Of a DNA stretch of 64,000 nt, positions 8,007-17,022 are shown piece by piece. The notes beneath the pieces are model-generated. The model worked only from the letters and a program-made list of their open reading frames with translations. It was not told where the DNA came from and ran no database searches. Source of the DNA: Corynebacterium jeikeium. Lineage in GTDB: Bacteria; Actinomycetota; Actinomycetes; Mycobacteriales; Mycobacteriaceae. The stretch lies in NCBI RefSeq assembly GCF_028609885.1, contig NZ_CP063195.1:2294001-2358000 (forward strand). Reading direction: 5' to 3'. Position numbers and translations under genes: made by a program. The number at the start of each line of letters is the position of its first letter. The stretch's first letter is position 1.

Positions 8007-8128
8007 ATGTCGCTAGAACGGGAATGCGTTAAAGGAAACTATTTTCACCTGCATAAAGTCGCAGGTTAGAGCGTTGCGCTGTTTTGGAACCTTGCGTTTC
8101 CATTTACAGATTCCTGTTCTAACGACAT
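8007..8128. repeat. 122-bp element with 18-bp terminal inverted repeats, copy A
   Basis: The ends ATGTCGCTAGAACGGGAA (8007-8024) and TTCCTGTTCTAACGACAT (8111-8128) are inverted repeats matching at 16 of 18 bases. A second element with the same ends and exactly the same length lies at 16799-16920. The two copies also share CGTTAAAG at positions 21-28, TTTTCA near 38-43 and AGAGCG near 62-67. It codes for nothing. An inner hairpin CCTGC-N8-GCAGG is present. It looks like a miniature inverted-repeat element or a structured RNA/DNA element; no target duplication is evident. Confidence 0.8.
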
Positions 8129-16626: not shown

Positions 16627-17022
16627 TGTTCAATTATGGCACCGGTAAGGGCATTAAGAGGGGTTCGCTGGGGGCTCCGGTAAGGCTTCGGCGGGGCTTC
16701 GGTGAGGGTTGAGTGAATACTGGTGGTCCGACTGCGCTGCGTAGTCGTCACAGCAGTCGCCGCCAACGGCGTCGCCAAACTCGCCGCCAAACTGAAAAAT
16801 GTCGTTAGAACGAGAAAACGTTAAAGACAGAAGTTTTCATTTATACAAAAGGCCTGGTCAGAGCGCTGTAGATTCTTGGAGACCAAGATTCCGGCTTGCG
16901 TATTCTCGTTCTAACGACATCGCCCCCTAAGTAGCGAGAATTTCACCAGGCGCGCCCTACCCCAGCTTCCAGGCTTACCCTTCCACCAGGCACGCCCGTC
17001 CCCATCACCCAGACAAAGCAAA
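16627..17022. other. Gene-free region holding element copy B
   Basis: No credible gene is seen between the DUF445 gene and the sdh operon end. Besides the 122-bp element (16799-16920) there are short GGTAAGG/GGCTTCGG repeats at about 16678-16705 and a C-rich stretch at 16921-17010. Confidence 0.6.
16799..16920. repeat. 122-bp element with 18-bp terminal inverted repeats, copy B
   Basis: The ends ATGTCGTTAGAACGAGAA (16799-16816) and TTCTCGTTCTAACGACAT (16903-16920) are a perfect 18-bp inverted repeat. Length and ends match copy A at 8007-8128, while the middle has diverged. Inner hairpins include CTTGG-AGA-CCAAG and GAAAAC-N12-GTTTTC. It has no open frame of note. Confidence 0.85.

Follow-up and report, generated by a model that had tools for sequence, protein, structure and literature searches.

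MITE, ERIC, REP/BIME and Correia-type repeats are about 100-130 bp long, have inverted ends, lie between genes and occur in many copies. The ends of Mu, Tn7 and Tn402 have TG...CA outermost and, on each side, directly repeated copies of a box of some 20 bp, the two sides being inverted relative to each other; in Mu, Tn7 and Tn402-type ends these repeated boxes are bound by the transposase. A different kind of short locus, which regulates DnaA, lies outside oriC and carries initiator boxes in set orientation and spacing, is represented in E. coli by datA, DARS1 and DARS2 (excerpted text of PMC5742627). According to the same excerpts, IHF has its site between DnaA boxes in both oriC and datA, and the spacing within DARS2 is optimised (PMC5742627).

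The window analyzed here is a stretch of 64,000 nucleotides (bases 2294001-2358000) from the 2,524,840-bp single contig of a Corynebacterium jeikeium genome (G000). Two copies of an element of 122 bp each, A (8007-8128) and B (16799-16920), can be read directly from its sequence. Laid out much like a portion of the replication origin, these elements are probably sites of protein assembly, perhaps tied to chromosome replication. No description of them turned up among the open-licence papers surveyed. C. jeikeium K411 was scanned in a study whose excerpted text gives spacers of 5-89 bp for its motif pairs (PMC5217627); the 122-bp frame therefore falls outside the results given in those excerpts.

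A 122-bp frame with three kinds of ends

The features of the two copies are listed below in window coordinates, with their basis between brackets.

8007..8128, plus strand: copy A, type I element, 122 bp (sequence; covariance-model match G000:C1:2302007-2302128)
8007..8028, plus strand: left end box of copy A (sequence; conservation profile)
8055..8077, plus strand: core of copy A, element positions 49-71, AAAGTCGCAGGTTAGAGCGTTGC, also in oriC (conservation; oriC match)
8076..8105, plus strand: spacer of copy A, positions 70-99, fixed in length, near-zero sequence conservation (conservation profile)
8107..8128, minus strand: right end box of copy A, inverted (sequence; conservation profile)
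16799..16920, plus strand: copy B, type I element, 122 bp (sequence; covariance-model match G000:C1:2310799-2310920)
16799..16820, plus strand: left end box of copy B (sequence; conservation profile)
16847..16869, plus strand: core of copy B, element positions 49-71 (conservation; oriC match)
16868..16897, plus strand: spacer of copy B, element positions 70-99 (conservation profile)
16899..16920, minus strand: right end box of copy B, inverted (sequence; conservation profile)

An earlier, sequence-only reading had described A and B by position, common length, ends and shared inner blocks, all of which the sequence bears out. The first search, with the pattern of the ends, yielded six copies, all of 122 bp and aligning without gaps. 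In G000 the frame ATGTCG-N110/111-CGACAT is present 30 times, and in five other genomes of the genus 37, 27, 31, 5 and 20 times; each of the other 236, out of 242 genus genomes searched, has it only 0-2 times. The reversed-pattern control gave 0 in G000. The match between A and B thus goes far beyond chance. With covariance-model searches the G000 total rose to 36 copies, spread over 25 intergenic sites and with few exceptions exactly 122 bp long (34 listed rows plus two further tandem copies in locus L133), and matches were detected in 8 of 242 genus genomes, G000 among them. The proposed search for the end pair at 122-bp spacing in genome and genus was therefore rewarded with many further copies. 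Five sister genomes of G000 also bear elements; among the matches listed, numbers in G061, G062 and G063 are similar to G000, and those in G065 and G064 are lower. Close relatives of the G000 element loci lie on contigs named Corynebacterium jeikeium and Corynebacterium sp. Copies A and B are thus not alone in the genome or among its relatives, nor are they the ends of one duplicated gene region.

The length was also recovered without being preset. When each of 133 unique left halves was extended to the first right end, the length was 122 bp in 124 cases, 123 bp in 6, 121 bp in 1 and 104 bp in 1; the one left half with no right end in range came from an unrelated genome.

Anatomy was established on 100 unique 122-bp copies from G000, G061, G063, G138 and G066. 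By their ends, 62 are of type I (ATGTCGYTAGAACGRGAAT), 31 of type II (ATGTCGGAAAAGTTGCA) and 6 of type III (ATGTCGTTAAAGTGGGAAT), one copy being unclassed. A single asymmetric interior is common to all three subtypes, with TTA at element positions 23-25, TT and CA within 36-41, AAA at 49-51, GCAGGTCAG at 55-63 and T at 69. The core of the elements reads AAAnnnGCAGGTCAGnGCGTTTT. From position 70 to about 98 the information content is low, after which comes the inverted right end. Terminal inverted repeats, as in MITEs, are present. The sequence-only reading had considered ends and spacing constant and the middle drifting; the former holds, and the latter is true of part of the middle only, the shared asymmetric interior being kept. 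Evidently, something acts on the element ends.

Three other identities were considered and rejected. Protein coding was discarded, as the best frame (+1, often with an ATG start) is open in only 46 of the 100 unique copies. A serine-resolvase res site, suggested by the TGTC/GACA ends, was dropped after inspection by eye. Finally, the MtrA site of C. glutamicum is given in the excerpted text of PMC3353115 as an 8-bp direct repeat (A/G)TAACAAT with a 3-bp linker; the core, compared by eye with this consensus, has GTCAG and GTTTT 8 bp apart.

Additional end boxes and genomic setting

Two features had been missed in the sequence-only reading: the many copies with quite different ends (subtype II, ATGTCGGAAAAGTTGCA), and the extra end boxes located beyond the 122 bp in 63 of 154 unique cores, copies A and B being exceptions. 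Left of the core these boxes are direct, right of it inverted. The 91 unique units come in lengths of 31-32 bp (19), 41-43 bp (14), 60-64 bp (48), 72 bp (2), 82-85 bp (7) and 110 bp (1), with no sizes between these groups. They follow a period of 10.34 bp (10.3-10.4) with a resultant of 0.91, reached by none of 2000 random sets, which places the boxes on one face of the helix. Removal of similar units left 44, and the resultant was then 0.89 (0 of 3000 random sets). In 86 of the 91 units, the type of the extra box matches that of the core end it extends. Several units resemble tandem copies of an end with its flank, and the related loci L030/L093 and L040/L080 differ by one unit.

Elements also occur close to one another. 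Adjacent elements, at most 700 bp apart, share the same strand in 42 of 42 unique pairs, 38 of which join a type II element to one of type I or III. The distances between partners are phased as well, with a resultant of 0.60 at 10.38 bp for 41 pairs, orthologs included (0 of 5000), and of 0.495 for distinct distances alone (4 of 5000). In locus L133 (2501-3140; G000:C1:2460227-2460866), three copies of an element with its extra right box are arranged in tandem with a period of 228 bp; this array is a recent local amplification.

All 34 scored G000 copies are intergenic according to a simple gene caller. The surrounding genes are convergent in 15 cases, co-directional in 16 and divergent in 3. 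Both element orientations relative to neighboring genes occur, and the element strand relative to the direction of replication is mixed, as judged by eye. Flanking genes were scanned (40/50), and those matched were ordinary metabolic or housekeeping genes and two IS256-type transposases. IS256/Mutator-type transposase genes adjoin elements at L113 and L124 in G000 and at L139 in G061, and about 1.4 kb of 99% identical DNA at L113 and L124 is common with L139. At L189, L190, L128 and L176, an element lies upstream of a siderophore-type ABC uptake operon (named by eye), whose neighbor genes differ between genomes, as after horizontal transfer.

The G000 sequence begins at dnaA, which was recognized by eye from the sequence. 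With the terminus assumed opposite, the 25 G000 sites lean towards dnaA, their mean folded distance being 0.34 (P 0.003), and only one of them lies beyond a folded distance of 0.68 (P 0.0007). The largest element-free gap alone gives P 0.054.

The core in replication origins and in other species

Two core matches near contig ends, in G234 and G130, were located beside DnaA boxes. Therefore oriC regions were examined. We read 17 contig ends (14 plus L234, L284 and L335) and took as origins the eight that contain at least three matches, within one mismatch, to TTATCCACA, which we take to be the DnaA box consensus; the remaining nine have fewer than three DnaA boxes and are uninformative. A core PWM was built from dispersed elements only. 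In 7 of the 8 origins, which are related to one another, the best PWM match follows an inverted reference DnaA box, picked by eye, at 45-47 bp from start to start; the corresponding distance in the elements is 45 bp. Likewise, GC(A/T)GGT lies 53-55 bp from the inverted DnaA box in oriC and 53 bp from the element end. For every one of the seven positive origins, 0 of 300 shuffles scored as high. The core is absent from the G101 origin. When G130 and G234, both found via the core search, are left aside, five of six origins are positive. The oriC core scores (7-23) are mostly below the 5% mark of the elements (20.6), and non-origin segments reach 17.2; the argument is thus carried by the offset. 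In G114, oriC reads GCAGGTCAGAGCGTT, identical to the dispersed consensus.

The right-hand side of oriC does not resemble that of the elements. The next canonical forward DnaA box is found at +85 to +89 in four of seven origins, and also at +133 to +135, unlike the element end at +119. No canonical DnaA box was found at element ends, nor was a cluster of canonical DnaA boxes; by eye, the ends TGTCGYTAGAACG, TGTCGGAAAAGTTGC and TGTCGTTAAAGTG are more than one base or an insertion away from TTATCCACA.

Two further loci with DnaA-type sequences were noted. In L350 (G271:C1:1-3000), DnaA-box-like repeats occur in 10-bp steps at about 2276-2400 (2276, 2286, 2296, 2306; 2363, 2373, 2393). In L326 (G015, at about 358 kb), a core match that is not at the contig end has several DnaA boxes next to it; this locus is possibly datA-like.

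At least two other corynebacteria have families of their own, with different arms and the same core. The mixed-type model gave four matches of 101, 101, 102 and 102 bp in G271 and three of 103 bp each in G118, every family with its own arms around the common core. One element of G271 was in the training set of this model; the first model, built without it, had already detected that element (7.5e-8). Since the E-values of the G271 and G118 matches range from 1.6e-8 to 0.03, the weight rests on common length and arms. Weaker candidates were found in G162, G206, G221, G081 and G107. The core is at 45-47 in G271, G118, G221 and G206, compared with 55-56, about one helical turn closer to the left end.

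A loose core pattern (2 mismatches) matched in 228 of 400 relatives, including some outside the genus (25 of 55 genera). Arms of at least 14/18 accompany 3 of the first 30 loose-pattern loci (control 3/60), and arms of at least 13/16 accompany 9 of 21 matches in 20 chosen regions (control 10/80). Most of these matches are not established as elements, so the argument rests on G271 and G118, and the wider spread of the core is suggestive. In L303 (G050, same order), a 131-bp segment with arms of 18/18 and an off-centre core-like stretch is possibly a distant relative outside the genus. Inverted GGATCCACCAC box arrays occur in L328 and L329 (G124) in a different layout, with a core-like stretch between the last two boxes.

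RNA, transposon or protein-assembly site

The sequence-only reading had left a choice between an RNA with an end-to-end stem and a mobile miniature element. The first of these, a small RNA of roughly 122 nt whose ends pair to form a closing stem, is highly improbable. In its favor, copies A and B fold well over their full length, whichever strand is taken (z -5.2 to -7.2), and the ends change jointly across subtypes, with 88.9% of cells paired compared with 77.3% in shuffles; this co-change fits a stem and also a binding protein proper to each type. Within the 62 type I copies, however, pairing is that of shuffles (91.8% of cells versus 91.9%), one pair being unpaired in 26 copies and another in 17. 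Folding the alignment therefore gave no covariation within type I, and a closing RNA stem is unlikely. Nor does the interior behave as an RNA, with mean z of -0.3 to -0.9 in types I and II, and -2.0 on one strand in type III, from six copies only. No shared interior fold was found, and Rfam gave no match at the element. Moreover, the elements occur in both orientations relative to neighboring genes, and the extra end boxes track the DNA helix.

An old family of miniature non-autonomous transposons that no longer moves is less improbable than the RNA, yet it too is unlikely, and ranks as the second rival of our reading. A transposase would then bind the outer TG...CA as well as the subterminal boxes specific to each subtype and the repeated boxes at the ends. 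Such a family would account for the inverted ends, the dispersed copies, the different end sets of different species and the change of element type at one site between species, which is seen at some loci. At L116 compared with L158 and L186, the type is switched and the left flank matches up to the boundary; locus B has type I in G000 and G061 and type II in four others, with flanks also changed. With regard to in-place end switching versus whole replacement, the variable segments at type-switched loci look unrelated, except for a weak resemblance at L116/L158 that 4% of same-genome pairs equal.

Several marks of movement were nevertheless not seen. Target-site duplications are at chance level (34 of 36 G000 copies, 2-9 bp, three boundaries). 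No longer element bounded by type I ends was seen by eye in G000, where 64 of 66 type I end matches fall in 122-bp cores or arrays and 2 stand alone (by eye). A search for PF09299 (MuA/TnsB-like transposase) is uninformative here, with a match in 0 of 8 genomes and all 14 control genomes likewise silent. Plasmids and phages contain no match to the whole of copy B at E 0.01, a result that bears also on the idea of a guide-like variable segment, and none of the viral stretches matching the end motifs (18 and 12) holds an element; a 121-bp scan match in L243 from the viral search was set aside by eye as a chance match. In G138 and in the record named Brevibacterium sp. HMSC07C04, the single element found (L189 and L190, respectively) is at the same siderophore-type operon and has not spread. 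Closely similar copies within one genome are at the same locus or about 7 kb apart; the best dispersed pair has an interior identity of 0.74, the median being 0.49.

All 25 G000 sites have an element-bearing ortholog in G061 or G063, which indicates common descent rather than universal presence, since the comparison loci were fetched because they bear elements. Copy A is absent from G064 and G065, and the flanks of this element-free locus differ as well, so that it offers no clean empty site. In 32 ortholog pairs, selected for alike elements, substitutions affect 30 of 1504 cells at motif positions and 183 of 1111 at free positions. Part of the middle is thus saturated with change and the motif positions stay fixed. 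Altogether, the saturated middle, fixed motifs and shared sites, with no target duplication, longer type I element or recent dispersed copy, make a mobile miniature element unlikely. The presence of the core in both oriC and the elements also speaks against a transposon origin.

Our preferred reading, which we hold tentatively and at slightly short of an even chance, is that the elements are dispersed oriC-like modules, candidate chromosomal sites of protein assembly with lineage-specific end boxes. The layout is an inward-facing end box, an oriC-type core 53 bp further on, a spacer of fixed length and a second, inverted end box. We infer cooperative binding of the end boxes by a sequence-specific protein that has its own specificity in each subtype, together with another, conserved factor that binds the intervening core or bends it. 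The fixed frame, the boxes on one helix face and the core shared with oriC fit such a cooperative assembly. The constrained motif positions, the co-orientation of neighboring elements, the families with other arms in at least two further species and the lean of the sites towards dnaA also speak for this reading; the non-canonical end boxes and the G101 origin, which has no core, speak against it. The place of the core in the element would be that of IHF between the DnaA boxes of oriC and datA in E. coli, and it is the analogy with IHF, datA and DARS2 that leads to this proposal. As its least supported step, the complexes may hold or switch an initiator-like protein as datA and DARS do, with a bearing on replication timing. 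A more specific version is possible, though more doubtful: the elements may be fast-diverging control sites on the oriC plan, in which the core was kept and the initiator-like boxes were re-specified per lineage, and two or three times inside a single genome. Together they would then make up a second nucleoprotein system, dispersed and initiator-like, whose boxes are bound by proteins of its own.

The main rival is a nucleoid-organizing or division-site protein that also binds oriC, so that the sites would serve origin-side organization with no regulation of the initiator, a logic analogous to that of SlmA and Noc sites. We consider it rather unlikely, if somewhat less so than the old transposon family. 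Dispersed intergenic sites that are sparse in the half opposite dnaA, helically phased boxes, and the position of 15 of 34 copies between convergent genes and only 3 between divergent ones would all suit such a protein. However, sites of this kind are not known to need a frame of exactly 122 bp or so long an asymmetric interior, and the shared offset to the oriC DnaA box is left unexplained.

Should the reading as oriC-like modules hold, the core would be an unrecognized component of corynebacterial oriC, a candidate counterpart of the IHF site that E. coli has between DnaA boxes; some 150 aligned variants would be at hand to define it. Initiator-like boxes would also have gained new specificities while the frame remained fixed to the base pair. 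Even without a role in replication, the strict helical phasing allows the geometry of a protein complex to be read directly from sequence, and the elements could be used as baits to fish out the putative binding proteins.

Compared with known systems, the elements share TG...CA and repeated boxes of about 20 bp with Mu, Tn7 and Tn402 ends; their invariant pair, however, is innermost instead of outermost, and neither transposase, cargo nor target duplication was found for them. They are like MITE, ERIC, REP/BIME and Correia-type repeats in size, inverted ends, intergenic setting and copy number, but differ in saturated divergence around fixed motifs and length, in phased satellite boxes, in co-oriented partners and in showing no target duplication. 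With corynebacterial oriC they have in common the core and its distance to the inverted left box, whereas oriC has canonical DnaA boxes and a differently built right-hand side. Like datA and DARS1/DARS2, as far as the excerpts of PMC5742627 describe them, the elements are short loci outside oriC with boxes in set orientation and spacing, and the core between their end boxes recalls the IHF site between the boxes of datA. They differ from these three loci by their non-canonical end boxes, their 36 copies and their mirror-symmetric frame of fixed length.
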